A DNA stretch of 64,000 nucleotides. Source: Fragilariopsis cylindrus CCMP1102 (Eukaryota > Bacillariophyta > Bacillariophyceae > Bacillariales > Bacillariaceae). The stretch's first letter is position 1. Each line of letters starts with the position of its first letter. Of this stretch, positions 5,018 through 41,931 are shown piece after piece. The stretch lies in NCBI GenBank assembly GCA_900095095.1, contig FMBT01000302.1, forward strand, positions 186,001 to 250,000. Direction: 5' to 3'. A program made the position numbers and the translations under genes. The notes below the pieces were generated by a model. The model saw only the letters and a program-made list of their open reading frames with translations. It did not search any database and was not told where the DNA came from.

Positions 5018-7446
5018 CTAATTTTTCTTTTGTTGTGCTTTCTTCCATCGTTTTAATTGTTTTGGTGTCATATTGGATGTATCAATGCCGTCATCATCGC
5101 CATCATTGTTGTCACCATTACCAGTAGTATCAGCAGTAGATGGTGGTTTTAGTAATTTAATTAAATTACGTTCCATACCATCTTCTACATCACCATCAAA
5201 GAACTTAACATCGTATAATCCATTCGTTAAAACTTTTGTTATTGTAGCGGGGAAGAATGCACCACCTAAATCAGCTTCAACTTCATCATTCACTCTTATT
5301 GGCATAACATATGCCCAATTATCAGGAAGGGCTTGTTGTGGTGCTGTCTTCTTGTCGGATGCTGCTCCAGCTGTTGCTCCTGCTGACGACGATGCTGATG
5401 CACCTTCATAAGACCATTTTAATAAATCAGTTTTAACTGTTTTAATTTTCTCATAATATTTTTGTACACGAAATAATGATAATCGTTGTATTTGATCAGG
5501 TGTTAATTGAACCTTTTTATTACTCTGATTATCATCTGTATCTGAATTAAGATGTGCTTTCATTGTCCTTTCTGCTTTACGTGTCCGTCCTTCTTCTATA
5601 GCAGCTATATACATATCACGATGTATATCTAAATATTCTTGTCCCTCTTGTTTCAATTTTTCTATTGTTTCTTTCCATATAGATTCCTCCACAGAATTAA
5701 ACGTATCTTCATCGACAGCATGTGCAATACGTTTTAATTCAGTAGTAACAGTATCTACTGATGATAATGATGCATCTTCACCATTATCATTTAAAAATCC
5801 AAGTGGGAATTCTTTTAATAAATCAGTATGTATTTCTTTTGGTAATTCATTCACACGTCCAATATAGACATTATCTTCATCACGTGATTGACCTAATGCC
5901 TTATCAATAATATTAGCTCTACGCAATGCTAATCGTCTTGCATTTAAATAATCTAATTCCCAACTCTTGTATCAATATTAAATGTTAAATGTACACTAGT
6001 CTTATCACCATCACTGTCGTTGTCATCGTCATCCTCATTATTAAAACCTGTTGTACTAGTCGTATGAGGGAATCCTGCTGGTATAAATAATACGTCACCA
6101 GGATTTAGTTCTGTTTCTAATAGTAAGTTTTTATCGTCACTACCACCATAGCATTATTCTCCTCCTCCTCCAAGACATGTAATGGTAAATTATCAATACC
6201 TTTCCCACGTGCAAATACATCTGACATTGGTTTGATAGTCGACGATGGTGGTTTATAGACCCGCCAACGTTTACAACCATTTGTTTGTATCACAATCACA
6301 TCTTGTTTATCAGTATGTGGTGGTGCCGATGTTTTTTTACCATATGATGTGACATATAAATTAACAGCATTGGGTGTATCAGTGGCATCTGTGACTGCTA
6401 AACATGGACCAGCAAGTTTGGGTACATGTGCACCTATGAATAAGATAAGATAAGATTCAGAAAGTAGAAAATGAGTGGGAGAGTCAGCACAATAGTCGAA
6501 AATGTGGTTTTCATCAGACACACTAGGTACACGGTATGTGCATGGTATGCAATCAGAAAGACTAATCGTTGATTATCCCATATTTGAAGTCAAGATCATA
6601 AAGTTTTATAAAAAACAAATAATTTCCTCATATTGCAAAACACACACACACACACTTCTTAGTATAACGTAACGTACCAAAGGCATTAAATATCACAGTT
6701 CCTTTTTCTAGTGCAATCAAAACATCGTCATAGGTCATTCGAGCTTCCTCAAAGGAATCACCTGTGGGTGTTGATACTGGTTGGATTGACCAACCTTTTC
6801 TATTATCAGTGGATCCACGAGAGGCATCTAAAAAGTCATCGATTAATGCCTGTTTTAAATCCTTCATGGTATAAAAACCATCAAATAATAAGATTTCTTC
6901 CTCAATCATCATCGACGATTCTAATTCATTCTTACGTAATAAGAATGGATGTCCAGATAATCCTAAACCATCAATAGGTTGAAGAGTTGTTTTAATTGAA
7001 TCTAATACTGCATATAAACCAGCTGATGTATACTGTTCGACTTCTTCCTCATCTTCATCTAATCCAAATGTTTCAGCATATTCTTTTCCTAATTTGGACG
7101 AGTCGGTACGGATCCGATTTAAGATTTGTTCTGATATATTATTTGATTTTAATGTTATTACGTCTGGACGTTGTTGTTGATTTTTGTTTTTACTACTACT
7201 TGCAGCAGCTTCAGATGTCGAAGATGGAGCTGTTGAAAACAAAACAACCGATCGTCGTGGTTGACATGATTGTTGATTGATAAATGCTGATGACGAGGTT
7301 GTCTTTGTGTTTGTGTTTGTTATTGTTGTTGAGGTGGTTGTGGTAGTTGTTGAGAATGCAGCTGTTAAGGTCAAGAAGAAGAAGGATACTGTCAGCAGTA
7401 GTAGAGCCACTTTGCTTGTCATTGTCATCATTGTCATTGTCGTCAT
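5018..7446 (-). CDS. JmjC/cupin oxygenase with C-terminal Tudor-like domain, possible plastid presequence
   Basis: Two exons: 7446-6678 and 6433-5018, with a GT-AG intron at 6434-6677 holding a CA run. The N-terminus has a hydrophobic segment, VALLLLTVSFFFLTLTAAF, followed by Ser/Thr-rich sequence, like a diatom bipartite plastid signal. The cupin core shows PPHTDKQDV (the HxD iron ligands), KRWRVYKPP, LNPGDVLFIPAGFPH (distal His) and WELDYLNARR, as in ROXA/NO66-type protein hydroxylases that use Fe(II) and 2-oxoglutarate. After a helical region comes a Tudor-like fold (about NDEVEADLGGAFFPATITKV through VKFFDGD). Two frame breaks, near 6128-6132 and 5962-5963, each fit one missing base; adding both gives exactly 729 codons. 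The substrate is unknown; ribosomal proteins are the usual targets of this family. Confidence 0.75.
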
Positions 7447-8367
7447 TGTAGGTAGTTTTTTTTGCTACTGTGTATGTTCTCAAGCAAAGCGATGGCAAAC
7501 TTCGATTAAGCACCCAACATATCTTTTTTGTGTGATGTGAAGGAAGGAAGAAAGAGAGAGGAGATGGCCAAATCATAAAGCAAGAACGAATAAATTTTTT
7601 TATTACGCGGTTGGTTGCTGTTGAGTTTCAAGTTCTGTGAAACGCACGCGCACGTATGAAAAAAATGTTCAAGATGGCAGTCTGGTCGCCTATACGTCCT
7701 ATGTACGTACGTTAACCGTTTTATTTTTTGAATTTTGAAATTGTTTTTATTTTATTATATTTTTCCGATTTTCCGTAGAATAAAAATCAATGGCTATTAC
7801 TGTACGTTGTGAGTGAATTCAAATCGCATTGCTGCAGCTCCATTTCAAAAATTCAGTTAGTTTGACACGCTCACGAACAGAAAAGTCGCACTTGAACGCT
7901 TTGCTTCGACTACGTAGCTAACTAACTTACTCTAATAACAAACAAACAGCGCATACTTGCTACTAGTAGCTACTACTAATATTACATCGTCATGAACACG
8001 CACTCCACTCAGCGAACTATTTTAATGTTAAGTAAGTAATGACCACTTACTTACTTTGACTTTTCGAACTACAGTGCGTACTGTATCGTCGGTTACTACG
8101 ATTACAAAACACAAAACCTAAGCTTCGCCGCTTACTAGTATTCAAATATATACAAAGTTTTTCTATTGAATTGATTGAGAAGACCATAACGGATAGTACA
8201 CACCAAGACGATACTGTAAATAGACACAGCCAACCAGAGAAACATACACTCGATCCAAAAGTTGAAAGATACTGCACCAAAAAAAAAACAATAACTACAA
8301 CTACACAGTAGTTCAAGGCGCGGAATTAATTGAACAGTAATTAGCATCAAATAAATAAATCATTAGT
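7447..8367. other. Divergent intergenic region
   Basis: Shared upstream region of the JmjC-Tudor gene (minus) and the PP2C gene (plus). AT-rich, with several TACTGTA-like words (around 7799 and 8078). No further gene is evident. Confidence 0.5.
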
Positions 8368-10553
8368 ATGGGAACTTATTTATCAACACCGATAACAGAA
8401 AAATGTGATGAATCAGGTGAATCATTAGAATGTATAACTACAGATAATGATAATAACAATAATGGTGATGTACCAGTAGAATGGGGTGTGGTTGATATGC
8501 AAGGATGGAGAAAATCAATGGAAGATTCACATACGGCTGTTACCACTGTACCAATATTCAATAATAATACTACTAATAAAGAACAGCAAGGCGAACAACA
8601 ACTGCAACAAATGGCACGTGTATTTGGTGTCTATGATGGACATGGTGGTGCCGAAGTTGCCAGATTTGTCAATATTATTTTGTCGATGTATTAATGAATC
8701 AACCAAGTTGGATGGAAGTAAATAATAATACTGAAAATGAAAATGAAAATACTAATATGAGTATGAGTATGATGCCTCTTACAGGGGATGATGAACGTGT
8801 ACCATTGCCACCACCTGTACCTACTGTTAATAATGATATATATAATGGTGATGGGAATGAAATGGGATATCGTTCGAAACATTTAGTAAATGCCAGTCAA
8901 ACACCGGTTGGTAAATCATTACGGGAAGCATTTCATGCCATGGATCGATTGATTGATGACCCAACACGACAACATGAAATTAGTATACTCAGAAGTACGA
9001 AAACGATGAAAGGTGCCACGAAATTATTAGAGGATGGTTTTCATTCGATACCCATCATTATACCCACATTATTGAATATCGCACCTGAGTTTTATACAAA
9101 AAATAAAAATAATCAAGATACAAATCAATCATCTGTAGCTGAAACAACAGTTGTTGCTGCGTTAGCGGACGTATTTGATGATGCTGATTCATTACCGGTG
9201 AATAAAAATATTGATGATCATGCTGCATTACCTAGTGCAGTTGGTGAAGATGGACGGAATGAACAAGCCCAAGCTGATAAATCCTTATCCACTGTGTTAA
9301 CACCAGAACAGGCAGAGGTATTAAAACATGAAATTGAAGAATTTGAAAAGAAGACTAATAGTAACAATAATGCAGACAAAGAAGAAGATGGAGAAAAGGA
9401 TGATGATAGTAATGAAGTTGTTGGAATAGAAGAAGCTATTGTCCTTGATTCAAACATTGACAATGATGATATTGACAATAATGATGATAATGATGATGAG
9501 GACGGTGATGATGGTATTATTACTGCCGAAGATGCAAAAACTCTGCCTTCTACTTCCACAAGTACAAGTACTACTACTACTATGCTACAAAAGATTTTAT
9601 CTTTAGGTGGTGCTGCAGTACAAGCTGCTGCTGGTACCGCTCTTCCAGCGGAGGACGATGGTGATGAAAATGAAACATCATCATCCGCCATCGTAACAAG
9701 CAGTAACGATGATGATGATGATGGTGACGTCACAGGTACAACAACACCAGGTACACCAACTGTGACATATCCAAGAAGTGTCGAGGTATCCCAACAAAAT
9801 GTTCGATATCCATCGGTGATACATAATGGACGGTTAGTATGTAATTTACCAGATCATCCAATTCATGCTGGTGCCACAGCTGTAGTAGCGGTGATTACTG
9901 GTAAAATTTTAACGGTGGCGAATGCTGGTGATTCACGTGCTGTCTTATGTCGTCGACGACGTAGTCGTGATGGTAACAATGGTACTGATGATGATGGACA
10001 TTATGCATTTCCATTAAGTTATGATCATAAACCATCCCAAACACATGAATTAAATCGTATCTTATGTTCGGGTGGATTTGTCAATCATTTTGGTCGTATT
10101 AATGGTAATTTAAATTTATCACGATCGATTGGTGATTTAAAATATAAACAAGTACCAGGAATACCACCCGAAGATCAAATGATTACAGCGGAACCAGATA
10201 TCATGCAAATTGTAGTAGAAGACGAGGATGAATTTATTATTTTAGGTTGTGATGGTATCTGGGATTGTTTATCGAATGAACAGGCGGTGAATTTTGTTAT
10301 GGAACGGATACAAACGAAAACACCGGTGGAAATTGGTACCGAAATGTTAGATACTATTATCTCTGATGATCCACGGATCACACAAGGGATTGGTGGTGAT
10401 AATATGACGATTATGATCATTGATTTACAAACATCCAACCGTGAACGTCGTAGAAAAAGTAATACATCGACTGACGAGTCGTTATCATCCACAAAGGAAA
10501 ATGAGGATGATGATAACAATATGACAACGACCTCGGAGGCAGCAATGGAGTAA
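8368..10553 (+). CDS. PP2C-family Ser/Thr phosphatase with a large acidic insertion
   Basis: Metal-dependent phosphatase that removes phosphate from Ser/Thr. Motifs in order: GVVDMQGWRKSMEDSH, FGVYDGHGGAEVARF, then GKILTVANAGDSRAVL, SYDHKP, LNLSRSIGDLKYK, FIILGCDGIWDCLSNE and GGDNMTIMII. The metal-binding Asp residues of DGHGG, DGIWD and GGDN are all present. The N-terminus MGTYLSTP allows Gly2 myristoylation. Between the second and third blocks lie about 260 extra residues, rich in Asp, Glu, Asn and Ser, not found in ordinary PP2C enzymes. The frame breaks once near 8665-8667; one more T there restores FCQYYFVDVLMNQPSW and gives 729 codons. Single exon, TAA stop. Confidence 0.9.
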
Positions 10554-11027
10554 GCTTCTTATGTTCTTAAAAAAGAACAACAAAAATAATAAAATAATAA
10601 AGTACGAACTATAAATAAAAAAACTATAAATATAAGAAGCAAACAACAACAAAAATGTATACTGTACTCCAACAAACATTCTAGAACATAACCTTTCGAC
10701 ATTCTGTCAATCTCAAGATTGAATGTAGCCTCTACAGTAATTGTATGAGTTGTTCATTCACGAAGAAGAGATATTATATTTTATTTAGGTCTACGCTATA
10801 TCTATAAATGCTAGCGATACACTACTATTTTATAGATTCTTGCTTCTAGAATGTTTTGCTGCTTACAGTATTTTGACTCATCTTATCTTATTTCCTCGTT
10901 GTAGTTCGTTGTTTGCCGTCGCCTTCTCCTTCCGCATCTGAACAATAATGATATTTTCCGTCGTCTGATTCTTGTGAGACAGTAGTATCACTCTGCGCGC
11001 CCTTACAGTACAAGGGCGCACGCAGTA
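10554..11027. other. Convergent intergenic region
   Basis: Lies between the 3' ends of the PP2C gene and the MATH-BTB gene. AT-rich; its only marked structure is the hairpin at 10997-11019. Confidence 0.5.
10997..11019. terminator. GC-rich hairpin just past the MATH-BTB stop
   Basis: GCGCCCTT and AAGGGCGC form a perfect 8-bp stem with a 7-nt loop, ACAGTAC, nine bases beyond the stop codon of the minus-strand gene. In eukaryotes this is not a classical terminator; it may be a 3'-UTR structure. The role is inferred from position only. Confidence 0.35.
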
Positions 11028-12320
11028 CTACTTACTACCTAGCGAACTACTAGACTCCTGTAGAACATCATTCTCTAGTTGATATCTTTTCAAACGTTCG
11101 ATAAGAATGTTTCGACATCCATCGATCTCCAGGTTTGCATATACAAGTGTTTCACGAAGAGTTGTTACATCCAAATTCTCTATGTCAACGACGGCGTTGC
11201 TGTTGCTGCTGCTGCTGCTGCTGTTGCTGCTGCTGTTGCTGCTGTTGCTTTTGAATAGTTCTTCAAGCAACCGGTTTGATTCTACAACCATAGACCAGTC
11301 ATCTTTGGATTCCATTACAGTGTTTGCATCTGATACGTGTAATCTCATCGACGCTTCCTTCAATAGAGCACATGAATACGAATCACTTAGTAGTAACCAT
11401 TTAGCGGCGTTGGTCGCATTAAGGAATTTATCTACAATGGTTGATTCAATATATAGTTTGAGATCGGTACAACCAAAACGATCAGCTGCGACAAGTAGTT
11501 CAATGGCGATGCCTTCATTCTTGATTTCTGGTGTCTTGACAGTATATACATATTCTAAAATCTGTTCGAATATATCAGCTTCCGTAGAAATAATCGTCAC
11601 AATCTTCCCATCTCTACTTCTACCATTATCGTCATCATTCGTCAATTCAAAAAGGGTTTCGGCACGAACGGAAAGGATACTTTTATGAGCATGGAACTCC
11701 TTTCCGTCAACATCGAATGTAATATCGGACGTTGATTCGTGTGTATGATACAATTTTACCAAGGATGGTTCTTCTTGTAACGGATCTGGATACCATATAT
11801 TCTTTCTCTCTTCGGCGATTTGAATATCTACTTCGATCACAAGCGTCCCATCTTTATCTAGGTAATTTTCAAGAACGTCGGTCCGTTTGAGAAAATTCTG
11901 GTAACCCCATAATCGTTTATCTCCATTATTGCAATCTTTGCAAAATACGTGCAGCTCGTCTGTTGCTCGTTTCGTGTCCTTGCAACGAAAACTCAACATC
12001 GTAGATGGCTCGTCATCCACGTCATTGTCTCCAACATATAGTAGAAAACAAGAGACGTATTCAAAATCTTCTCTTGAGCTGGGACTTCCTCTCGGAAAGA
12101 CACGAAGAATCCAATCGTGGCCATAGGCTCGTATTGAAGGAGTTTTAATAGGTTTACCGCGGACTTGGTTGTGGTTAGCAAAATCGTTGATACGAAACTC
12201 CATTGTCTGAATCTCATGTTTCAGTAGTTTTGGGGTAGGACCCACAGATACCACACCTATTCGATTGCATTTTTCACTAAGGTTAGACGACATGTTTTCT
12301 TTTTTCGTAGTGGCGTTCAA
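11028..12320 (-). CDS. MATH-BTB/POZ domain protein (SPOP/BPM-like)
   Basis: Single exon, 430 residues. Residues about 35-165 form a MATH-like domain (GHDWILRVFPRG, FVSC-like FEYVSCFLLY, GYQNFLKRTDV, LVIEVDIQIAEE). Residues about 190-295 form a BTB/POZ domain (SDITFDVDGKEFHAHKSILS, ILEYVYT, LLVAADRFGCTDLKLYIE), followed by a BACK-like helical part. Such proteins act as substrate adaptors for cullin-3 ubiquitin ligases: MATH binds the target and BTB binds CUL3. A Ser/Asn run (about 360-385) comes before a C-terminal segment with LRETLVYANLEIDGCRNILIE. The neighbours do not point to a target. Both domains look intact. Confidence 0.85.
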   Translation of the reverse strand: MNATTKKENMSSNLSEKCNRIGVVSVGPTPKLLKHEIQTMEFRINDFANHNQVRGKPIKTPSIRAYGHDWILRVFPRGSPSSREDFEYVSCFLLYVGDNDVDDEPSTMLSFRCKDTKRATDELHVFCKDCNNGDKRLWGYQNFLKRTDVLENYLDKDGTLVIEVDIQIAEERKNIWYPDPLQEEPSLVKLYHTHESTSDITFDVDGKEFHAHKSILSVRAETLFELTNDDDNGRSRDGKIVTIISTEADIFEQILEYVYTVKTPEIKNEGIAIELLVAADRFGCTDLKLYIESTIVDKFLNATNAAKWLLLSDSYSCALLKEASMRLHVSDANTVMESKDDWSMVVESNRLLEELFKSNSSNSSSNSSSSSSNSNAVVDIENLDVTTLRETLVYANLEIDGCRNILIERLKRYQLENDVLQESSSSLGSK

Positions 12321-13107
12321 TTACTTTCAGTAGTTGTTTTTGTGTCGTTTTCTCTACTGTATTACAAATTGGAGTACAAACTGTGTAGTATCTATTCTGT
12401 TGTATAGCTATTCTTAGCATTACTCAGTGGCTGTTACATTTTTCGCAGATAGCACTGGAGGAATGTTCTGTATGAAGCATTTTTAGTTTGTCTAATTGCT
12501 TTTTGGGGTCTCGCATAATTGAAGTTTTGAGTGACGCGTGCCGAAATAAAATAAATACTAATAATAATATTAAGTATACATTAGTAGAACGATATTCAAC
12601 CTTCGCTCTCACGGCTTCCTTAAGTGAGTCAAAGAAATTTCAACTCGTGTTTGAGTATTAATACTTCACAGCGCATTAACACATACAATACGGTAGCACT
12701 ATGATATGAACAAGAACATCCAGGATCAATATGAGCATGTCTAAATTGTTAGGGTGGTGCGCCTAAGTAGTTAAAGTTTTGGTAGAGTGTTTTTGGATAA
12801 AAGAAGAATGAATCAATATCAATCGAATGAATGAGTGAGTCGAGTCGAGAAGTCATGTCATCATTGGCAGCACTTATTGATTGAGTCGCCACTATGCATA
12901 ACTTGTATCATCATATATTATTAATTATAGTATTTATTTGCATTTCTGCCTACAGTATTAATTTATTTCACTCACTCTCTCTTTCTTTTACTTATACAAA
13001 CAATTTATTTCTCCCACTCTCTCTTTCTTTTACTTATGCAAACAAATAATAATTGGATAACAACACGAGAGAGGTAGATGCATTCATTCATGGGAAAGAA
13101 GAATGAA
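12321..13107. other. Intergenic with a 50-bp direct repeat
   Basis: Upstream region of the MATH-BTB gene and downstream of the next minus-strand gene. At about 12968-13047, 'cactctctctttcttttact' plus 'tat(a/g)caaacaa' occurs twice in tandem. A 62-codon frame at 12424-12612 has no recognisable features. Confidence 0.5.
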
Positions 13108-13919
13108 TCAATGCATGGAAAGTGTTTGGGTTACGGTAGAACTATTTGTATCAACTGCGGCATCGTTTTCGTCCTCGTCTAATGCAGGTGTTGTCTCCTT
13201 CTCCTCAACGACAGTAGCAGATATTACATCGTCGTCGTCGTCCTCCTCCTCTAGTACAGGTGTTGCCTCCTTCTCCTCAACGACAGTAGTAGAAATCAAA
13301 TCGTCGTCCTCCCCTCCTCTAATACAGGTGTTGCCTCCTTCTCCTCAACGACAGTAGTAGGTGTTGGTGGTGGTGGCGGAAGTAGTGGTTTTGGTTCTTT
13401 TGCTTTACTAACAGATGTAAAGAAGTTTTTAATTGCATCACCGAATGATGTCCAATATGCACCAGTGCGTTGACCAAAATTATCCCAATATGATCCAACA
13501 CGTTGACCTTCATTCTTCCAACAATCAGGATCTGAACTATCTTGACATTTTTGCCAATCATATTTACCTTCACCGTTATAATCAGGTGTTGTTGCATTAT
13601 CGTATGGATATTGATCATCAGTACCATAATTATGATAATCATCATCATTTTTTGATGAAAATGATGCTAACGGTAGTCTTTTTGGTCGAAGCATCATCCC
13701 CTGTGCAGTATTAGCATCATTATCTGATGTAGATAGTGCTTCGTTTGCAATTGCCATTAGGAATACAACTCCAACTGCCATCATTGAACGAACGATCCGA
13801 TTGTTATTGTTACTACTTTTGTTATTTTTATTGTTTGTATCGATGCTAGTGTCGGTAGCAAGATCACCACTACTAGCACTGTGCACCTCGGCATGCTGGT
13901 AAGAAAGATATGTAGCCAT
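13108..13919 (-). CDS. Single-pass membrane protein with C-terminal VEEKEATPVLEEE repeats
   Basis: About 270 residues. A hydrophobic segment at residues about 45-62 (SMMAVGVVFLMAIANEAL) makes it a type II membrane or secreted protein. A middle part carries two related Trp/Tyr-rich phrases, RVGSYWDNFGQ and RTGAYWTSFGD, then a proline run. The C-terminus has three tandem copies of a unit like TTVVEEKEATPVLEEEDDDD. The frame breaks at the second repeat, at CCCC 13311-13314 on the plus strand. One more base there joins the frames into 271 codons ending in TGA. I do not recognise the family; the repeated SYWDNFGQR-type phrase suggests a small helical or amphipathic module. Function unknown. Confidence 0.65.
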
Positions 13920-14986
13920 GGTAATACTATTCGTTGCTAGCTACAGAAACAAATAAAAAAAATAGAGAAGAAAATGCAGAATTACTATTTAGAAGTGGGA
14001 TGGTATACCTATCGTGGCGCAAACTCGACATAGAGTCTAGTAGACAAAACAAAAAAACGGCACCAATACACTATCTTAATAGCACACTAGCTAGCTAGCA
14101 CTTACGTTACGTTTCTCGATGTTAGATTTAGAAAATAATAGTGAAGTTTTCCGGTATGCTGTTCTGCTTGTCTCTTTATTGATGCTTTGGATTGAGCGAC
14201 TTGCTGTGCATTTACTTTGGACGCGCTTTCTTAACATGCTATGTTGGCGATGATAAACGATGATTGATGATAGTAAGGTACGGTACGGTATGTGATGAAA
14301 ATGGCGGCGAAGGATAGCTATACCACAACATCGCCGCCACACAACGCCGTGACGTGCCTTCGTCGACTATAGTACTCGGAAAGAATGAGGAACACGCTGT
14401 TTGTAGATTCGGGAGAAGGCACGATTACCCACGCGAGATTGTCGTGCTTCAACAAAAAAAATAGGAAGCAATAAGAATTCTTAATTGAAGATTCAAATAG
14501 GTCTTCATCCCGATCCAAAGATCGCAGCAAAACATCACATATTATACCACGGATTGTAACGTTAACGTTACTCGTAAGTTAGTACATTTTTTGTGAAGAG
14601 AAGTAAAAGTGTTTAAGCAAAGAAAGCAAGAACGAATAAAGAAAGGCAAAAAAATATCTTTTACTCTTGAGTGCGCTCAATGCATGTTAATCGTTCTCTC
14701 TGGCACAGCTGGAACGCACTCGATTGACAGTGTTTAAAAAAAGAGCCTAAATAATACTTACTTTTCGACATTTTCCAAATCATCGATGATAGACATTCTT
14801 TAAGGTGCTGTACACCGCCATGCGCTCTGATACGTTTTCCTTCATTTTTTTTTGACAAAAAGTAACTAGTCTTCGCACAAGATATTCATGTTGTGTGTAA
14901 GTTACGGTACTGTAAAATATTATTCCCAAATAATATTGTATCTTGCTTACAGTAAAAGGATATGCTATCAACAGACAACAGGTGTT
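13920..14986. other. Divergent intergenic region
   Basis: About 1.07 kb between two genes transcribed away from each other. It has a short GGTAC tandem near 14276-14289. Several 60-80 codon frames on the minus strand look like chance. Nothing else was recognised. Confidence 0.4.
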
Positions 14987-16975
14987 ATGTCAAGAATGCT
15001 ATCAGATAAACAACAGAGTAGTAGTAGAAATAGTAGGACGGGCAGTAGTTACTGTAGCCGTAGAAGCAAAAGCAAAAGCTGCAATAGAGTGATAGTCGTC
15101 GGTGTAATACTGATATTCATAGCTGCAGTACTATTATCTCCCCAGCATCAGGCTGCTGTACAAGTAGTTACTGCTAGTTCACCGCCATCGTCAACGTCAT
15201 CGTTATCATCATCGTCGATCATGAAGACTATAAGTGGTGGTGTACAAATAAAAAACGACGACGACAACATCGATGTCAATGTCAATGTCAATAACGATAA
15301 TGACAATAATAATGAGATCTGTATTATATTTTCTGATCTTGATGGTACTTTAATACATTATCTATCATCAGACAATAATTTATCAACTAAGAAGGATGTA
15401 TCAGTATTAAATTTACCAAAAAGTTCCAGTGGATTATCTGGAATTATATCGGCACAAACTTTATGTTCCATACGTACTATAAGAAATGGTAATTGTGGTG
15501 GAATTGGAGGAAGTAATAAAGTAACATTTGTATTAATTTCTGGTATGAGAACCTCCACATTTTTACAAAGATTACCATTTTTACCAAAAGCTGATGCCTA
15601 CGCTACAGAAAATGGTGGACGTATCTTTTATCCTTTAAACGACAATACTAATAATAACAACAAAGATGACAATACATTTTGGGTCAAACCAAAACGTTTT
15701 CAAGGTTCCACGAAAGATGATTTACTACCATTTGGTATTTATGAAGATATGGATTGGAAAAGAAAAATGATCAGTACAAAAGCATTAGGTGGACCTGGTG
15801 ATGGTAATGGTGGTAATAATGGTGATGATGACTATACACTGAATCAAATTTTAGATGATCCATCAGGATCACAAAAACAATTAAAAGAACGTGATGGATT
15901 ACTATGGGATTTTGCACGTGATTTAATACATAATAAACATTTCATATTAGATACCAAAGGATATTCCACATGTTTTCGTGTCAATCGGAAACATCAAAAT
16001 CAAAACAATGACAATGTATCTGAAGCAGAAGCAGAAGCACCACCGTCACAATTAAAATTTAAATTTGAAGATTTATACAATGGTAAATTTCTAAATCAAC
16101 CACCATGGATTGATGATAATGATGATAATACCGACAACAATAATATTGAATATAATGATAATGCTAATGTCATCGACGAGGATGGACATGTGATACTATC
16201 CGAATCAATTCAATCTAAAATTTCCTGGAGTGTTAATTTAAATTGTGTTGATTTTTATCCATCGATTAGTGGTAAAAAAAATTGGTACGTACTATATATA
16301 TATACTCGTATGTTTTGTTACTTATGACTATTGTCTGCAATGCAATACAATGGAGCTGCTGCTGTGCTGCTTGTTTTTTGTTTGTTTCATGTCTTATTTC
16401 TCAATCAATCTCTTATTCTCTTTTTTCGTTCGTTCTTCTCTAACACCACCACCACCAACAACACAACAAAACAAAACGAAAACAGCTGCTTATATTTAGC
16501 ATCAAAATTCTTTCCAGAACGTTGTGGTGGTTATAATAATCGTCATAATAATTCAGAAGAGGACGACGTAGTAACAACAACAACAACAACAGCAACGGCA
16601 GCAGCATTAGAATTATTCTTATCGAAACATTGCATATGTTTATGTGATGATGATAATGATTTAGAAATGGCATTAGCATGTCAACATGCATACTTACCTG
16701 ATATTTCTTCCCAATCAATGATGGATATAACACAAAAATATCCAAAGCATTTTACTATTCCTTTTGCTACTACTACTACTACTACTACTACGAACGACGA
16801 TAATGATAAAAATGATAATAATAATAATAATGATGGTACTGATGATACTGATGATACTGACGATACTGACGATGATCCCACTTCTGTCGTAAAGAAAGGA
16901 ACAACTGAGGCGACTGATTTAGCTCTATCTATGATCATGGAACGTTTAAAATTGAGAAGATTCGATTCTAATTAA
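14987..16975 (+). CDS. HAD-superfamily phosphatase (Cof/SPP-like), membrane-anchored
   Basis: Two exons, 14987-16284 and 16486-16975, with a 201-bp GT-AG intron; the spliced length is 596 codons including the stop. The start chosen is MSRMLSDKQQ; an upstream in-frame ATG-like start is less likely. A signal anchor, RVIVVGVILIFIAAVLLSP, follows a basic N-terminus. HAD motifs: FSDLDGTL (nucleophile Asp), VLISGMR (motif II Ser), SGKKNCCLYLASKF spanning the intron (motif III Lys) and CDDDNDLEMALAC (motif IV). These match type IIB HAD hydrolases such as sucrose-phosphate phosphatase, which remove phosphate from sugars. Asn- and Asp-rich loops interrupt the cap region. Substrate and compartment (secretory path or plastid) are inferred. 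Confidence 0.8.
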
Positions 16976-17551
16976 CAGTTCAGTATGCATCCTCTCTCTA
17001 ATTTTTCGTCGTCGTTATCGTCGTCTAAGCTATAATACTATACTCACAATCAAACTAAGCGCTGTAGTTTCAATTCTACTACTGCAGTAGCTAAAAGTTG
17101 TTTCTGTTGCTATTAATAATTATTAGTAATTATTTTTTATTCTTTATTAGGATAACCTCTTTCATCTAAAACAATAAAATCATATTTCTCTTGATCCTTC
17201 TATTCTGCTGGGTGAGTGAGAGGTTTGAACAGAGTCGTATAAGTAGTACTGTTGCCGCTGTTGTTGTTATTGTTACTACTTCTGGATTGTTACAGTTAAA
17301 ATCTTTTTGCACGAATGAAATCACGTACGGCAGACAGGACATCGCAATGTGAATGAAAGAGAACACTGAATGAGAACACTACAAACGAAAGAACAATTAC
17401 CTACAAGGTATCTTATGCTCTCACAATTTAGGAATAATGTATATCACAAGGTAAAATAAGGAAGGAAAGTTAAAGTAGGACATACATTCTCTAGAAATGG
17501 GCGCTTAACCAAATCATTCCAACATATTATATAATAAACCGGTTAAAGCAG
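16976..17551. other. Intergenic region
   Basis: AT-rich spacer between two plus-strand genes. No recognisable gene; a minus-strand frame at 17166-17366 has no supporting features. Confidence 0.4.
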
Positions 17552-18125
17552 GGATCTGGTCAAGCGATAACAAGGCATTGTTGTCGACAGAGGAAACAGG
17601 AGAAGAAGAAGTAAAGGAAAGCGAAAGCATCGAAAGCAAAGACTCGCGCTTAGAAGAAGAAGCTTTAGAAACACGATTGACTGAAACATTGCCTGAAGAA
17701 TTAGCTACTCTACCGGCAATAATAACTGAAGCAATCGTAACAACCGAGACAAAGGAAAAAGAACTAGACGACTTCGAGATATCATGTCGTCGTCAGATAA
17801 TCCTACCATCAAGTTGGGAATAACGGCAGCGGAGTTCGCTGTAAAGGAAGTAGTTTTGAAAAGTGTCCTAGCTATATGGAATTGTTCTGAATTCTATTCC
17901 GAGTCTAAGCATACAAGCTTACCAAGCACGGAAGATGGTGGTACGTCTGATGAAGAAAAAGATGCATTAAAGAGACATCGACTTAGTATATACATACTAA
18001 CTATGGCATGTCAAAACAGCGCACAAATTATGTGTTCTGTCGAAGAAAGCAAAGACGATACGAACTGGCCTAATGGACAGATGCATCTCATTGTTACTAA
18101 TCTCAATTTAAGTCACAAGAATTGA
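17552..18125 (+). CDS. Hypothetical protein, start uncertain, one frame break
   Basis: An open frame from about 17509 to 17823 encodes an acidic sequence (STEETGEEEVKESESIESKD ... LPEELATLPAIITEAIV). It overlaps a second frame at 17784-18125, beginning MSSSDNPTIKLGITAAEFAV and ending NLNLSHKN with a TGA stop. The two would join if one base were missing near 17780, as at other loci here. The upstream frame has no ATG, and a candidate acceptor (gcag at 17548-17551) suggests an unseen first exon. The second part reads like a helical globular segment (KDALKRHRLSIYILTMACQN). I do not recognise the family, so no function is given. Confidence 0.4.
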
Positions 18126-20295: not shown

Positions 20296-21654
20296 TCAGT
20301 TGTTAAATATATTATCAATGGAACTTTTATCATTCACGTCACAGAAGAAATACCCGCATCCACCACCATTCATGTTTGAAACACTTCTATCGCTATCACT
20401 ACCGGCATTACTTACTACAGTAGTAGTTATTGTTGTATTGCTGCTGCTGGATCGTTGTCTCTTTTGTCCATCTTGTCGTTCGAATGCATGTGTGGAACTG
20501 GTATTTACTTGCTGTTGTTGCTGCTTCTGTTGAGCTCGGATCATTCTTCTCTTAAAATCTACAAATGCAGAGTTAACTTTGGATTGAATTTCTTTGTAAG
20601 CATCAAAATATATGGCACTATTAACATTCATATTCACATTCGTATTCACATTCATATTTTCAACTTCATTTGCATTCGTATTCATATTCGTATTTGAATT
20701 CGTATTTTCAATTTTATTTGCATTTGAATTTGCAGGAATATAGTTGATCGTAGTCATATTTCTGATATCTATATCAATATTCGAATCCATGTCTTCACAC
20801 ATCTGTACATTCATGTCAATCCAACAACTTTATCATTTTCCCATTTTAAAAATCGACCACCATCCTTTTTTACGTGTTGTATTACCTCAATTTCAATGGC
20901 TTTCTTTTGGGCTTGTTTAGTATTTGGATCAGAATATGCTGTAATTTTGATTCAATTATGTTTTGGAACTTGGCATTTCCGGGATGATAGTTCATTGATT
21001 TCCCTCTCCTGAAAACGACATCATTTGATCCAGGACATTCAACAATGCTGTTCATTGGTGACTTCATCAATGTCTTCATTGATACTGTCATCTGTTCTAT
21101 CATCCTTTCTTGTGTTAGACATTCAGTATAATTCTTCAATTTGATCCATCTTTTCCAGTTTACAAGTTTTATTGTCCCGGTATCAGTAGAAGGGATTATT
21201 TCTGTGGGAATCCCATATGCCTGAAGAGCATATCGCCACTCGATAGGATGCCAAGATGAATTTTTGTTCGTGAATTCCAAACAGAATTTGCCATACCAAC
21301 AATCTTCCCTCTAACTCTGTATGCTTGGGTGTTTGGGTAGCATAAATGATTGCCAACCATTCTGATTGGAACAGCTCCTGCAATCATCATTTGTGCTAAT
21401 ATTTTACCCTTGATTAACTTTAGATTTAATTTACTTGCATCATCATCAGAATATTTAAGTGGACAAAGGAAATAATTATTAAACCTTTTCGATGACATTC
21501 AATATTATTGAAATCGTTATTTGCAGTATCACAGCCACCAGCACATGCATCTAATAAATAGAAACCTACTTTGAGCTATATTTTTGTATTGTATTGTTTT
21601 GTTTTGTTCGTGGGTTTGATACATACATGTATATATGTGTATATATGTATATAT

Positions 21655-21695
<41 letters not shown>

Positions 21696-22529
21696 GGATT
21701 TGGAATGAAAATGAAAATGAGACAATGAGACCAAGAAAAGTCAAGAAATGAGTATTGATATATAAAGAATTGGAAAACTAATAATAGTAAAAATTCCAAA
21801 AGCCAACTGAATAGAAAAAACATTCACTATACATAATATACAGTCAGTAGTCTATGATATTCTAGTTATATCTATATACACTTACCATTGATTGTTCCGG
21901 AACTACGTCTAATTGATTCGTTGATGGAAAAACGATTATCCGACGACCACTACGGTCCCGGTAAGGCAATATTTGGGTTTGCCCTCTCTCAGAAACAGCA
22001 TTTCTTCCGACTGAAATCACTCATACGAATAGGCCTTTGTAGAGCGTAGTCCCATATACCTTTGCAACGAAGTCAAGATATCTGATGAAGCGTTCAGCAG
22101 CTTTGCGTACATTAAACAATTCACATCTCAAGAATCGTAATCGAAATGTTTTTTGTTGATATAACAACAACAGCTCAAACTTGATTTTTGAACAGAGAAG
22201 AGATGGCTGCTAGATGTAGTAGATGCCAACAATAATTCTTGTGCTTTGTCGTATGCTGGTTTTGGGCTGATTTTGTGTAACTCTAATTCAAAATCAATCA
22301 ATGACTGTTCTAATAGATCAGGTGTTTCTTCTATTGCCAAACAAGACACGCCATGGATTTCATCTTCAATTGCAGTTCGGTCATTGAATGACAAATTTGT
22401 CAATGCTTTGGCAAATAAGCTATCAGCAGTATTATCGGTATTGCTACTAGTGGTAGTAGTAGTATATTGCTCTGCTTGTGACTCCTCTTCTTCTTGCTCA
22501 ATTCCTAATACAGTGGTCTGGCGTTTCAT
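20296..22529 (-). CDS. DUF6824 protein with CRAL-TRIO-like N-terminal part; frame broken several times
   Basis: Two exons, 22529-21886 and 21550-20296, with a 335-bp intron. The N-terminal block has LTNLSFNDRTAIEDEIHGV, ETPDLLEQSLIDFELELHKI, RFLRCELFNVRKAAERFIRY and QILPYRDRSGRRI. The second exon has VPIRMVGNHLCYPNTQAYRV, EWRYALQAYGIPTEIIPSTD and TGTIKLVNWKRWI. DUF6824 follows, with NDVVFRRGK, NYHPGNAKFQNIIESK and KKDGGRFLKWEND, then an Asn-repeat tail. This is a common diatom family, perhaps lipid- or nucleic-acid-binding; its biochemistry is unknown. Five frame breaks (about 22149, 21457, 21246, 20945, 20823) plus a phase mismatch at the splice junction each fit one missing base. A TGA at 22021-22023 is a separate defect. 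It is either a young pseudogene or badly read sequence. Confidence 0.7.
21663..21686. repeat. GA microsatellite in an intron
   Basis: A run of GA dinucleotides on the plus strand (CT on the coding strand) inside the DUF6824 gene intron, beside alternating TA/TG sequence. Confidence 0.8.
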
Positions 22530-23587
22530 GGTTTTCCGCCGTTTGATAACAATTATTTACTATGATGAACAGATCGATGATAGATAGTCGAGCGAGTATT
22601 ATGAGAGCAGAAATACTATGATTGTAGACGATAGAGATCTTAGAGAGAGGAGAGACGACAATATGCATGTACCGTATCTCACTCCAACTACGACTATTAC
22701 AGATCTTTTTGTAATATAATTTATATGTTAACGTATCTCATAATTGCTTTGCGTACAGCGTTGTACTATTAAGGCGGTATTTATGAATCAAGATCGAAGC
22801 GATGCGTCAGCACTGTAACGATGGACAACCAAAACGCAAATACAAGAAACGATTTACTTTTGAGTGAAGTGGACGTGGACAAAATCGAGGCAAGCTTAAA
22901 TGATGGTATACTTACTGGCAACGTAAACATTATTTATTTAGATCAGTTTGGTACAGATTTATCTTATAAAACTATGTGATCGTTAAATAAGGTTCTTTTT
23001 TATTCGCGAAAACACCATCAATAGAGCGAAGAAGTCTAATACTACTTTTACAAGTACTGTACCGCCACCATCTGGAACCTTAGAAGAATGCTGGGTTCGG
23101 TCCAATAATCTACCTATGTCCTACACGTGTCAGAGTTTTGGTAAAGTACTGTAATTAACGACTAAAAAATAGAAGATTCAACAAGTTCAACCCAACGATT
23201 TACTTGGTTTTCGTAAACGTGTCACTACAACTTGTAAAGTACATGTAATCAACGACCAAATAAAATAGAAAACATCAATCATGAGTGATATAATGTACAG
23301 TACAGTACTTTTAACGACGAACAAAATGTACTGGAATGTGAATGATGGGTGAAGAGAACTGCATGTACGGTACAGTAGTTCGATATCTTCACATTGGACG
23401 TATTAAGGGAACACAATTTGAAAAATCCTAATATCGCTCGGGAAATGACAATCGCGACATACAAAACATGAATACGACACGTATCTCCACAAAAAAAAGA
23501 ACAAAAAATGGACTCGAATAGGTAGTAAAATAGTAATGCGCAAGGTTTCTTATTTAATAATAGGATCTAATATTCCTTTATTCTATT
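22530..23587. other. Intergenic region with TACAGTA-type words
   Basis: Spacer of about 1.06 kb. It holds the small ORF at 22821-22979 and repeated words of the GTACAGTAC type (around 23148, 23292 and 23368). Nothing else was recognised. Confidence 0.4.
22821..22979 (+). CDS. Small ORF, doubtful
   Basis: Begins MDNQNANTRNDLLLSEVDVD and runs 52 codons to TGA. The first 30 residues look protein-like. A possible donor (gatggtata) follows 'SLNDG', so it could be a first exon or a 5' relic of a larger gene. There is no match I can name. Confidence 0.25.
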   Translation: MDNQNANTRNDLLLSEVDVDKIEASLNDGILTGNVNIIYLDQFGTDLSYKTM

Positions 23588-29786: not shown

Positions 29787-31168
29787 ATGGGAATGTTTGC
29801 TCGATCCAATGCCGGCAATAAGCAGTCAATTCAAAGAAATGATGGATTACCAATTGTACAAGGAAGAAAGGTACGCACAGCAAATCGACGTAGTGATTAT
29901 AATTACAACAATCAATATGCAGCGCATAATGACAATAGTTCAGCAGGTTGTATAAATTGGAATTTTTGGACATTTATTATTGTTGCTATTGTATCAGCAA
30001 CTGCCTATTATGCATACGATAATAGCGTGGTTGTGCTAGGGACAAAGACAGAACCTACAGCTGCAGCTACTGCTGCTGTAGCTGTAGTTACTGCAGCTGT
30101 ACCTGCATCTGCTCCTGTACCAGCAGTAACAGCAACAATTGCTACACTAGCTCAATTATCTGTACCACCAGCTGATTTAACAAAAGCGACATTCCCAGCT
30201 GTATGTACCACAGAACAACGTACAATGATTGGAAAACAATTACCATATTCAAATTGTAAAAGATATTGGAATTCAAATTGTTCCTTCCGTGCTGCGACAG
30301 CAAGTGGTTGTCAAAATCCTATACTAGCACGTGAATTTTTTTCAAATAGTAATGATTTTAAATTAGGAGTAGGAGATGATACAACAAAATTTAATGCACT
30401 ATTGTTGGGATGGAGAACAGATGATAAACCAATGGATTTATTAAATATTGGATCCGGATTAAATTCGAAATATAATGTGAATACATGGGATAAAGAACTT
30501 ATTAAAACTAAAAGACCAGAAAATATATGTCGTACACCAATTGTTACAACAACAACAACATCACCACCACCAATACCACGTACTCAAGTACCACAGGTAT
30601 TAGTGATTGATTGGGAACCCATCCAAACTTATTGTTAGAAAATTTAAAAAAACATGGTTCATTAACAGATTCTGAATTGATTATTGAAAAATTGAATATC
30701 AATAATTATTTGAATAAGAAAAATAGTTTAGATACCATCATTGAACAAAAATTGGCAAAAACAAAAGATGAACCAATCCATTATGTGGACATATCACGTA
30801 GTACAGAAGCATTAGATTATTCCTTTTTAATGGAAATGATATCCTCCACATACATAAGAAATATTCGATTTTTACATTTTGAATACAATAATAAAGGTGA
30901 TTGGGCTGTAGCATCACATACATTAATAAAATTATTAAGTGCATTACGTAAAAATGGACTAGTATGTTATTGGTCAGGTGGTGATAATACACAATATAGT
31001 TTATGGAGAATTACAGATTGTTTCTTAGACTTTTACAATTACAAACATTATTCACGTATTCAATGTGTAAGTGTTATACATGATGATGTTAAAGTCTTAA
31101 GTGAACGAATGGAAAAACAATTCTTAGCTACATTATTAAAAGGACCAACACATACATTTGGTGGGTGA
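29787..31168 (+). CDS. Diatom type II membrane protein, FkbM/methyltransferase-like
   Basis: About 460 residues. A single signal anchor at about 55-70 (FWTFIIVAIVSATAYYAY) and an Ala/Thr-rich stem suggest a Golgi or secretory protein. The lumenal part has YSNCKRYWNSNCSFRAATAS, VLVIDLGTHPNLLLENLKKH, EPIHYVDISRSTEALDYSFL, SALRKNGLVCYWSGGDN and LWRITDCFLDFYNYKHYSRI. This order resembles a diatom family annotated as FkbM-type methyltransferase-like (a GxH near the start, then acidic and Trp-rich late motifs); the activity is not proven. The frame breaks once at TT 30611-30612. One added T gives VIDLGTHPN and 461 codons in total, ending in TGA. Confidence 0.6.
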
Positions 31169-31578: not shown

Positions 31579-32889
31579 TTACGATATTTTTCTTCGTTTT
31601 TTACCATTCTCAATGTTATTACAATGAATCCCACTATCGGTTCCATCATCATCGTAGTCACTGTTCTTATCACTTGCACCGTCATCATCGTCGTCGTCGT
31701 TGCTGATGTTGTTGTTGCTATTGTTGTTGTTGCTGCTATTGTTGTTGCTGCTATCGTCGATGGATCCCGAGAAAAGTTTTACCAATACATCAGGATGCCT
31801 ACGAAATAAGAAATAGACACAATCTAAATGAATATTTTCGTCCATAGCTGCCGTTAGTATTGCCTCCACAACATTTAATTGTGTTGAATTATCGGCAGAA
31901 GAAGAAGGAGAAGAAGAACGAATGAGAGTATCTTCTACGACTCGCATTACTTCATTTCGTCCAGATGTTTCGCACGCCGATTGGAAGGGTGTTACATGCT
32001 GATCTTCTACCTGAAACAGTAGACTAATACCTTTCTTGTTTGGATAATAACGAATTCCATACTCAAACACCAACTGAAATTTTTGCATCGATCTAGTTAG
32101 TGCAACTTCATGAAGTGGAACCTCTCCAGTGCAATCCACTCTCGTTAAAAATATTGGATCCCATTCGATCATAAACCGAAATCTTTTTTCCGCGAAACTA
32201 TTATTCTTCCATAATTCCTCAAAAAAATCACTTTGAATGTCTTCTTTTTTTAACAAACCCATTTGTCTCAATTTTTGTATTACGAGAAGACACTTATCAT
32301 CGACGAGTTTATCATCAACGAGTTCTAGATGTTGCTGGTCGACAGGTATAGTCGGGCCAGCAGTAATGAGATGTTGCATAGTAGTATCCTCATACTCATC
32401 TTCAATCAATAATCCTCCTCTTTCTTCTTCCCTAAACAAGCCAAACTCTGTCGCTAGTCTAACTGCAAGTGGAATAAAAGAAACAGCCTTTAAATTGCAT
32501 ATGCCACTTAACTTGTCATCGGAGCCACAGGTAATGAAATGAATAGGCAATCTTTGTTGAGGACCTGATTTTTTCGATAACACCCCTGGAAATAAACGGA
32601 TGGCGGCTTCAACTTCGTCTTCTGTATCTCTATCGCTATCTAAACCTCTATAATCATCGGTGTAGGGATTTTTTTCGCAAAGCATATCATGGATGTCCAA
32701 TTCAGTACTATACAGAAACTCTGCAGCTAAACGATCAATTTTATTTCTTGTGCGCTTAGGATATGTTCGCTTCCTTTGAAGCAACATAATTAATGTCAGT
32801 AGTGTACGCTCTGCGGCAGCAGCTGCTAGTTCGTCGACATCGTCGTAGTCAGTATCACGATCGTCGTCGCTTAAATCACTATCGTCCAT
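31579..32889 (-). CDS. Ankyrin-like family protein, full-length copy 2
   Basis: 436 residues, single exon. An acidic N-terminus (MDDSDLSDDDRDTDYDDVDE) leads to a basic helical block (KRTRNKIDRLAAEF), LDSDRDTEDEVEAAIRLFPG, LPIHFITCG with NLKAVSFIPLAVRLATEFG, RQMGLLKKEDIQ, EVPLHEVALTRSMQKFQLVF, FEYGIRYYPNKKGISLLFQ, VTPFQSACETSGRNEVMRVV and HLDCVYFLFRRHPD. The PIH, PLH and PFQ phrases followed by paired helices look like degenerate ankyrin repeats, which usually bind proteins. The C-terminus has an Asn/Asp/Ser run and ends KKRRKIS, a likely nuclear signal. Relatives lie at 3913 and 47975, with relics near 51.6 and 58.8 kb. Function unknown. Confidence 0.7.
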   Translation of the reverse strand: MDDSDLSDDDRDTDYDDVDELAAAAAERTLLTLIMLLQRKRTYPKRTRNKIDRLAAEFLYSTELDIHDMLCEKNPYTDDYRGLDSDRDTEDEVEAAIRLFPGVLSKKSGPQQRLPIHFITCGSDDKLSGICNLKAVSFIPLAVRLATEFGLFREEERGGLLIEDEYEDTTMQHLITAGPTIPVDQQHLELVDDKLVDDKCLLVIQKLRQMGLLKKEDIQSDFFEELWKNNSFAEKRFRFMIEWDPIFLTRVDCTGEVPLHEVALTRSMQKFQLVFEYGIRYYPNKKGISLLFQVEDQHVTPFQSACETSGRNEVMRVVEDTLIRSSSPSSSADNSTQLNVVEAILTAAMDENIHLDCVYFLFRRHPDVLVKLFSGSIDDSSNNNSSNNNNSNNNISNDDDDDDGASDKNSDYDDDGTDSGIHCNNIENGKKRRKIS

Positions 32890-34979: not shown

Positions 34980-35128
34980 CTTATAGACAAAGACAAGAAT
35001 GATAATATGATAGAAATATCATAATAATAATAAAAACTAGAAAATCTAAATGTATACACCTACCGTAAAACTTACTATTGTTTTAATCAATTTTAATACA
35101 GTACTTAATCTCTATTATTACTGTACAA

Positions 35129-37825: not shown

Positions 37826-39271
37826 TTAAATTAGATCAATATTATCGTGCAAGAAGATCCTTTGGCTCATAGCAGTAGGAGTAGTAGTAGAGTCCGAATT
37901 ATTGTTACGGGACGACGACGATGTTGTTGTTGCTGATGATGATGATATAACTACTACATCATCGTCGTATTCATTATCACGTGTTTTATGTTGACCGTAT
38001 ATAGATGATGCACAAAAAATCCATTTTCGTGCAAGTATCGCAAGTTCTGGAAATTGATCTTGATTCTTCTTCCACCAAAGTAATGGATCTTTTATACGTC
38101 GTTGTGATTGGACTGTATTAAAATAAGATTCAACATTTTTCTTGGCGTATTCACAATAATTTACATTTACATTTCCACTACTAGTTGCATCATCACCAGG
38201 TAAACCCGTGCTGTCGTTATCGTCATTGTCAGCAGTAGTAGTAGTAGTAGTAGTAGTGCAATCTGCTTCACCCCAAAATATCCCACCCATAGCGTCATTC
38301 ATCGGTACACTTGCCTTTTCTGGTTCACATTCACGTTGTTCCTTTTGATCAATAAGAACAGCAATTTTTTGTACTTCACTAATCAATTTTAGTCTTGATA
38401 CATTTTGTTCACGGTCCGATAGAATACTCATGGCAATTAATCTTGGATCAAGAGGCATTGTCCATGCCATCGATGGAGGAGTACCATCTTCTTTCATATT
38501 TACAGCATTCAGAAAATCTTCGCGGATTGAATCGTTAAAAGTTTGGATTAATTCTATTTGTTCCTTCATCGCGAAGATAAAACCGACCGTTACTTGATCA
38601 TGATCGTGATTGACGTCTTGTTCGTATTCCTGTTGTTGTTGTTGTTGTTGTTGGCTGAGGACATCACGGATTCTCCGAAGGACAGTAATCGTCAATCCAA
38701 ATGTAGGATAATTGTCTTCTGATAAAGTTCGGATTGCATCATGAAAGGGAGCTAACGTGCATAAAATTTGAGTTGTCATCATCGTATCAGTTGTTGTTAT
38801 CGCTGCCGTCCTCTTCAAATTTTCGTAGGCTCGTATCGATGGAAACAATGATAATGATGAGGGGTACATATTCTTAACGCTTGTCGTCCTTATCTCGTCC
38901 TCTTCTGCTCTGTCGTCCCGTCGTTGTCGGAACAACAAATCTCGGATTGTACGCGACACGTCATTTACACCGCTACCGGAAGTAGTAGCAGAACAAGTAG
39001 AAGTAGTATTTGATAATCGACGAAGTGCATTCATGACAATTTTATCCAGTCGATCGAGGATACAATATTCAGGTTGCGGTAATATTGTTGTTGCAGCTGC
39101 TAGCGTTGATGTCGCTGTTGTTGTTTTCGTGGGTGTCGTCTCTTTTTATTGTCTCCGTCACCTACACCGGAAGAAGAGGAACCACCTCTGATTATCACAG
39201 TATTGTTGATGATCTTATCTTGAGGGAACCCATAGATGTCTAATGCAAGTTTCACGGCATTGATGTAAGAT

Positions 39272-39306
<35 letters not shown>

Positions 39307-41931
39307 TGACGACGATGAAAATCCACTACCGCATTCTTCTTTGTCTTCATTTTGTTTTTGTATCCCCCCTTCCATAGTAGTACCTACCACTACCGCTACT
39401 ACCTCCGCCTCTGGTATTACTGCTATAACATATGATTTCAATTCAAACATTGGTGTACAAAATGTAACACGTACTGGATAAAATATGTCTTCCTGTACAC
39501 CACCGATGATGCCATCCTGATCTTGCGGCGGTGACGGTATGCTGTTGCCATTGTCGTTCTCGTTGTTGTTAGTGTTCTCGTGATTATTATTACGTCTTTC
39601 TTCTTCCCTATCCCTATCATCCCGATTCTTCCAATTCCCATTCCCATTCCCATTATCATTCCCGTCCACACCGATGCTGCCGTCCTTTACGACATCATTC
39701 GTTATTGACGCAGCAGCAGCATCTTCATTCCCATTCCTATCCCTATCCCTATCCCTATTCCCATTCCCACCGATGCCAGACTTCCTCTTACTGGCAATTC
39801 TTTCCCCCTCCCCATCCTCCCCTTTTTCTGGAAACAATGCCGTCTTATTACGGCTAATAGCCCGCACTTTTCTTACTGAAACAGAAAAGTATTCATATTC
39901 ATTGTTATTACTTTTAGTTGTATTAGTAGTATTCATATTATCCCTTACAACATTGTCACCACCACCATCACCCCCGTCATCATTGATTTTGATTGTTACC
40001 GGATTTCTATCTTGATTTTTACCATCATGAGCAGTAGTAGTAGTAGTCCTAGTAGTAGCAATAGTAGCAATAGTAGGAGTAAATAATTCTGAGACATAAG
40101 ATTGAATTTCATTTTGTATTTTATCTTGATTCAATTTTGCTAATGAATTCATAAATTTGTGTGTTGATGTTGGTAGTTGAAATGATTTATTTAATGTATA
40201 ACAAAATTCACGAAATAATGATTTGTGATTGCTGTTGTAGTTCGAATGCATAATATTATCTAACGTTTGATACGATCCAACCATCCAACGAAATAAAGCA
40301 TTATTTATTGTTGTTGTTGTTGTTGCAGCAATTTTATTTTCGTCCGTACTACTACAAGAACTACCTTGGATTATTTGTTTGTTGTTATTCTTATCGTTCT
40401 CGTTCTCGTTCTCGTTCTTCTTACTACTGTCGTTATTTTCATTAGTTTTCCCCTTCGCAGTGTTGTTTCGTAGTAGTTTCGTCGCTATTGACTTTGCCTT
40501 CGCGTTCCCCCATTTCCCTTCATCATCAGCATCACCATCAGCATCAGCATACGAATCATCATCCTCGTCTTGTTGTTGTTCTTCTTCTTCTTCTTCTTCT
40601 TCTTCTTGAAAATATTGTTGTTGATTCTCATTCCCCCTTTTCATATTGTTGATGTTATCATTATTATTTTTGTTTGTACCACTGCTGCTCGCTGCCCTTT
40701 TTCTGATGATTTTCGTCGTCGCCTTTTTCTGAGTAGTAGTAGTAGTAATAGTAGGAATATTGATATCATCTGTTGTTGTTGTTGTTGTTGTTGTTGTTGA
40801 TTGCATCATCCTATTATTTCGTTTCATCTTACTACTAGCAGGTGGTGGTACGCCCATCATCGTTTCTGTTTCTGTTGTTGCTCTTTTTCTTTTATTATTC
40901 GTCGTCGTTTTCATTTTTGTTGATTTTTTCGGCTTAGTCTTTTTTGCTTTCGCTGCCGCCTTGGTAGTTACTGTTATTGTTGCTGCTGCTGTTGATCCTT
41001 CTTTTTCTTCTGCTTTTGCCGTGGTAGCTCCTACTGCTTCTTCCATTTTAGTTTTCGACTTAGTGTTAGTAGTATTAGTATTTTTAGTCACTACTTTATT
41101 ATTATTATACTTATTAGTCACTTTGTAGTTATGATAAGAGATCAAATGTCTGGTAATAGTTTTCGATGTACCTACACTATAGGTAAATTGACATTTACAT
41201 TGTAAACAATAGGCGGCAATAGCATCTTTGGATCTCCATTTATATTGTCCAATTGGTAATTCCGAGGTCGGGGATGGTGCTACTAATCGTATATGATACC
41301 ATAATTCTTTCCGATAGATACGATCGGGTATATATAATCGACTGATTATACTATTTTCATATACTATACCACTATTCTTCCTTGGTATTACTGTAGTTAC
41401 ATCAGTATTTGCATTCGTTTCTATTGTTGCTGCTGCAGCTGCTGCTGCTTTTGCTGCTGCTGCTATTTTGTTGACTTTGCGTCGTGCTGGTTGTACAATT
41501 GAATCATTAATATGACCATGTTCTTCGATATTAATATTCATTAATGCTGCATCATCCTGATTTGTATTTATATTTGTATTTTTATTTCTATTATCCATAA
41601 AATCCATAATATCAATATCAATATCATCACCATTGGCATCATCCATATCCATATCGTCATTGTCATCGTACTCGTTGTCACTTCCATTGATATAATCTTC
41701 TATTGATGTTGTAGCTGTAGCTGTACCTGCGTTATTGTTGTCGACGTTAACATTGGCGTTGACTTTGTCGCTGCTGTCATTGCTGATGCTATTGCCGCCA
41801 TCGTTACCAGCACCAGCACCAGCACCAGCAGCAACAGCAGCAGTGAATGATGCAGGGATTATAGCTTCATCGTCGTGCTTACCATCATAGCAGTTGTTAT
41901 TGTTGTTATTGATATCATTAGGCAACGACAT
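37826..41931 (-). CDS. Very large hAT-transposase-derived protein, possibly domesticated
   Basis: Two frames (41931-39100 and 39034-37826) read as one gene. A break at TTTTT 39143-39147 fits one missing base and restores TSTLAAATTILPQPEYCILD across the gap, giving 1,369 codons. Near residue 210 is a BED-like zinc finger (YCLQCKCQFTYSVGTSKTIT followed by RHLISYHNYK). A later LFRWMVGSYQTLDNIMH ... SLFREFCYTL block resembles the hAT N-terminal region. The C-terminus has DPLLWWKKNQDQFPELAILA, the hAT dimerisation motif. Hundreds of residues are Asn, Asp, Thr and Lys filler. I cannot find a clear DDE triad, a host duplication or terminal repeats. One reading is a transposase co-opted as a DNA-binding protein; an old decaying copy is the other. 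Confidence 0.6.

Follow-up and report, generated by a model that had tools for sequence, protein, structure and literature searches.

Single-base frame breaks in Fragilariopsis cylindrus genes as very probable residual indel errors of a long-read consensus

Genes and frame breaks in the window

The window, a stretch of 64,000 nucleotides from the diatom Fragilariopsis cylindrus, corresponds to C307:186001-250000, where C307 is the contig that carries it in a genome of 67.9 Mb in 818 contigs. Several of its genes change reading frame part-way along their length. They include a JmjC_2 gene, whose protein is similar to L16 arginine hydroxylases and to NO66/MINA and which shows an apparent intron elsewhere in the gene, a PP2C gene, and a DUF6824 gene (20296-22530, minus strand) that contains five breaks and belongs to a large family with 123 matches in the genome. 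In many of these matches, a lipid-binding-like part, which we take to be SEC14-like, continues into DUF6824 in one frame. At 37826-41931, again on the minus strand, two ORFs make up one gene, whose match to the hAT dimerisation family is weak (20.6 bits, under the cut-off of 21.4) and which has many in-frame repeat gaps relative to its copy on another contig, C16.

Other parts of the window also have relatives elsewhere in the genome. The segment 17345-20005 is 70-83% similar to several other contigs and contains short repeated pieces near 18.4-18.7 kb, while 31579-32889 (minus strand) is an unbroken ORF of a large family, with dozens of genome matches at 64-77%. Genome-wide, the ice-binding family PF11999 has 53 matches, some of them in tandem and three in one 760-aa frame on contig C674, and the chlorophyll-binding family has 104. 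Scans for tRNA genes and Rfam families found nothing.

Three-frame translation of the window showed frame changes at each of the places listed below, thereby upholding an earlier note that had reported them from the sequence. When both signs of shift were compared, a switch of the type "one base missing" gave the better pair of open arms at 12 of the 12 sites, and at every site there is an overlap of the two reading frames, 19 to 115 nt in length. The sites are as follows, each given with its interval and strand.

5962 (5953..5971, minus): frame break in the JmjC_2 gene; one base short, two-frame overlap; called by the coding model; no intact comparator
6128 (6117..6153, minus): frame break inside the JmjC_2 domain; called by the model; the domain match spans the join
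8665 (8637..8694, plus): frame break in the PP2C gene; called by the model; solved PP2C sequences align over the join
13311 (13296..13344, minus): frame break in a gene with no family match; sign taken from the coding model; no intact comparator
17780 (17730..17823, plus): possible frame break; called by the model at the looser cost only; paralogues too diverged
20823 (20811..20829, minus): frame break in the DUF6824 gene; called at the looser cost only; crossed by the alignment of paralogue L063, and by that of L064 by 3 residues
20945 (20882..20951, minus): frame break inside the DUF6824 domain; the domain match spans the join; crossed by 6 of 6 aligned paralogues
21246 (21196..21310, minus): frame break in the DUF6824 gene; open frames; crossed in one frame by 3 of 6 aligned paralogues
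21457 (21426..21498, minus): possible frame break; open frames only; may be an exon edge
22149 (22128..22209, minus): possible frame break; open frames only
30611 (30611..30638, plus): frame break in a gene with no Pfam match; called by the model; crossed in one frame by two homologues
39143 (39100..39145, minus): frame break splitting a gene into ORFs 39100-41931 and 37826-39034; intact ORF on C16

As frame breaks, sites 17780, 21457 and 22149 are weakly supported. Two further arguments that had been drawn from the sites carry no weight. The breaks had been said to lie in runs of 2-6 identical bases, but a run of at least 2 is also present in 98.7-100% of randomly drawn coding intervals of matching length, and the longest runs at the break intervals are ordinary when compared with such intervals. 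Likewise, the whole-number codon counts obtained after repair are uninformative, since any frame-restoring change yields them. Lower-case letters, as a mark of unpolished bases, were absent from the four sequences examined.

Direction of the breaks and continuity across the joins

The direction of the shifts was assessed with a seven-state coding model, which assigned equal cost to a missing and an extra base, had 14 long ORFs from the window as its training set, and was run over the window without being given the listed sites. At the default cost it placed six shifts (5960, 6149, 8680, 13312, 30630 and 39144), all of them of the "missing" type, after three calls at bases 2-4 had been dropped as start-up artefacts. 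A tenfold looser cost added 17791 and 20822 (missing) together with 7369 (extra), the last of which is absent from the earlier list, for a total of eight missing and one extra. Depending on the cost setting, the model thus reproduced 6 to 8 of the 12 sites, and it called no shift at 20945, 21246, 21457 or 22149 at either cost. In a planted-indel control, the right sign was recovered for 159 of 168 deletions and 154 of 168 insertions and the wrong sign was never returned, and the "missing" direction is therefore real for those sites that the model detects.

Of 57 further loci, 11 were excluded for overlap with others or with the window, L008 needlessly so, and the same model was applied to the remaining 46 (60.7 kb called coding). 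Here, eight shifts were of the missing and two of the extra type. The two extra shifts among ten, together with gaps in single bases (below), show that deletion from short runs is a tendency of the assembly and not a rule. One "extra" shift lies at position 1112 of contig C759; at that place C307 has an open frame and is shorter by one base. Separately, an "extra" shift occurs at the same place in both copies of one gene (L054 at 6952 and L053 at 6950), where it could reflect an intron or a genuine feature that the copies have in common. The earlier generalization that a base is always missing thus stands for the 12 listed sites, with a near-tie at 13311 (arms of 365/236 nt against 323/236 nt, "one base extra" being nearly as good as "missing"), but it does not extend to the rest of the assembly, where insertions occur as well.

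Joining the pieces regained family motifs, as had been claimed. The joins were read through with an X at each and with no base restored, and the JmjC_2 domain match rose from 41.3 and 21.5 bits in pieces to 62.1, the DUF6824 match from 22.2 to 51.5, and the PP2C match from 23 and 171.6 to 189.6. Human PP2C sequences from the PDB (PPM1B and PP1A entries) align over the PP2C join and are ungapped there. No Pfam family matches the gene broken at 30611, whether joined or in pieces, and two homologues, C769:10122-11045 and C369:20154-21092, pass its join in one frame. For the DUF6824 gene, 6 of the 123 family matches were aligned: all six maintain a single frame over 20945, three of them (L063, L064 and L065) do so over 21246, where the alignments of the other three start past the break, and at 20823 the L063 alignment clearly passes the break while that of L064 extends past it by three residues. 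At 17780, the aligned paralogues are too diverged to decide the frame. For the break sites below 24 kb, a search for another copy of the window yielded only repeats and paralogues.

These alignments bear on the possibility that some of the breaks are missed introns or exon edges. Such a reading would fit the apparent intron of the JmjC_2 gene, the interval from about 21500 to 22100, which looks non-coding in three frames, and the sites 21457 and 22149, which are supported by open frames only. Against it, the two frames overlap at 12 of 12 sites, and family or homologue alignments span the join at 6128, 8665, 20945, 21246 and 30611. The overlap led us to reject introns as a general cause; that some of the breaks are of this kind is unlikely, with introns at 21457 and 22149 being possible.

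Comparisons with other contigs of the assembly

Contig C16 carries a copy of the gene broken at 39143 that is 87% identical to the window and one base longer at the break. It forms a single ORF of 1348 aa on C16, and two, of 943 and 402 aa, in the window. Gaps between the two sequences were multiples of three in 40 of 44 cases inside three shared ORFs, compared with 3 of 17 between them, which indicates that the reading frames are under selection. Of the in-gene exceptions, one is a base missing from the window at 39143, one is a base missing from C16 at 35416, and the other two form a 5+4 pair adding up to nine. The C16 pair therefore includes two broken genes, each of them broken in one copy only.

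This comparison is difficult to reconcile with real pseudogenes or allele-specific broken genes. The genome does hold diverged haplotypes, and five breaks fall within 1.3 kb (20823-22149). On the other hand, each break involves a single base, nearly always with the same sign, and both broken genes of the C16 pair are intact in the other copy. With in-gene gaps relative to C16 so largely confined to multiples of three, pseudogene decay was rejected as a general cause and is highly improbable as the explanation of the breaks.

A further view of the assembly's accuracy comes from C759:1-20000, which is a second assembly of C307:501313-521312, elsewhere on the window's own contig. Two long alignments of these sequences contain 120 one-base gaps and 90 mismatches, the latter mostly in the first 7.4 kb; beyond position 7,444, the remaining 12.5 kb contain 53 one-base gaps against 3 mismatches. 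Differences so rich in gaps and poor in mismatches are not expected of real alleles. The gap rate climbs with run length, amounting to 2.4, 13.9, 33.6, 79.4, 72.9, 137.9, 222.2 and 500 per 1000 runs for lengths 1-8, with a small dip at length 5; these rates were measured on C759/C307 and not on the window sites, and those for lengths 7 and 8 come from only 9 and 4 runs. The gaps are also patchy (variance/mean of 3.8 per 500 bp), with none from 9,031 to 14,051 and 45 from 14,052 to 17,436. Where one copy was called coding and unbroken and the other was unrecognised, the unrecognised copy was the shorter in 19 of 22 cases (C759/C307) and in 2 of 5 for another pair, C377/C514. One gene of this region, C759:3513-4755, presumably with a DTW-like motif, is broken in both the C759 and the C307 copies, at different places.

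Eight contig pairs were compared in blocks of 500 columns with at most 1 mismatch, that is, blocks chosen on mismatches, and three of the pairs yielded no block. In the 54 blocks obtained, one-base gaps numbered 77, alongside 2 mismatches and 2 longer gaps. C759/C307 contributed 70 of the 77 gaps, while C107/C40 had 0 in 5 blocks, C182/C379 had 2 in 6, and C377/C514 had 5 in 13. Since the other pairs have far fewer gaps, this worst pair carries most of the statistics.

Residual consensus errors as the likely origin

Programmed -1 ribosomal frameshifting is a known system in which the ribosome slips back one base on a slippery run, typically a heptamer, and continues in the other frame. The earlier note had held it to be much less likely than missing bases, and we agree that it is exceedingly improbable here: it predicts the right sign at all of the listed sites, but an in-frame X_XXY_YYZ heptamer occurs in 0 of the 12 break intervals (background 7.9%), homologues stay unbroken in one frame across four of the breaks (39143, 30611, 21246 and 20945) so that the shift is not kept among them, and 78 of the 120 single-base differences in the C759/C307 pair lie outside the parts called coding in either copy, a placement not predicted for a device that acts in translation. 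It was therefore rejected.

We consider it very probable, from sequence comparison, that the breaks of the window are indel errors left over in a long-read (PacBio) consensus. Dropped bases would persist in it wherever polishing was unsuccessful or usable reads were scarce, mostly in short one-letter runs and sometimes in single bases, and the affected patches would span from a few hundred up to a few thousand bases. A dropped base within a gene would then shift the frame and split the predicted gene, the real genes being intact. We infer that every listed break is of assembly-error origin and that the errors stem from poor local polishing. The idea of undercalled bases in a long-read assembly is borne out by the one-base gaps of C759/C307 and their increase with run length. 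Its narrower form, homopolymer undercalling, describes the main pattern but not all of it, as the errors are patchy, 25 of the 120 one-base gaps hit single bases and not runs, and insertions occur too.

Residual indel errors are known in long-read assemblies (for example, PMC12007338 and PMC8812927). The breaks here resemble them in being one-base gaps that are tied to run length and split genes, and differ in that runs of 2-4 are often affected too and in their patchiness. For F. cylindrus itself, a PacBio FALCON/Quiver assembly has been compared with 13 finished fosmids, with 0 to 135 indels each (PMC5634323). Summed from the table of that paper, there are 622 indels over about 421 kb, and the four that carry no more than 3 SNPs have 17 over about 144 kb, haplotype differences being included in both figures. 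The 6 (model) or 12 (listed) breaks in 32.8 kb called coding in the window fall inside this fosmid range, and in both settings the load varies strongly by place; the sign, run length and gene effect of the fosmid indels are absent from the parts of PMC5634323 examined. The genome matches this species: the two primers published for its rhodopsin FcR2 (PMC10627834) have exact matches that point towards each other over 1,157 bp and enclose a third published primer, and the forward primer of FcR1 gave no match when up to one mismatch was allowed. The assembly studied here is likely, though not proved, to be the published one; its 818 contigs and 67.9 Mb disagree with the published 745 + 288 contigs and 59.7 + 9.1 Mb.

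The breaks are thus almost certainly neither a biological feature nor a special mode of gene reading. It is very unlikely that one or two of the five sites with no intact comparator (5962, 13311, 17780, 21457 and 22149) are real, as a recoded or an allele-specific broken gene; if true, a real broken or recoded diatom gene would be hidden amid many assembly errors. Duplicate contigs within one assembly provide a cheap test for such errors, with no reads needed. In gene catalogues taken directly from this assembly, real genes will appear in pieces, and the fragments could be misread as pseudogenes or lost alleles, so that gene models here need RNA or short-read support. Finally, diverged alleles are a subject of study in this diatom, and one-base gaps that separate haplotype contigs should be taken for biological differences only when independent reads support them.
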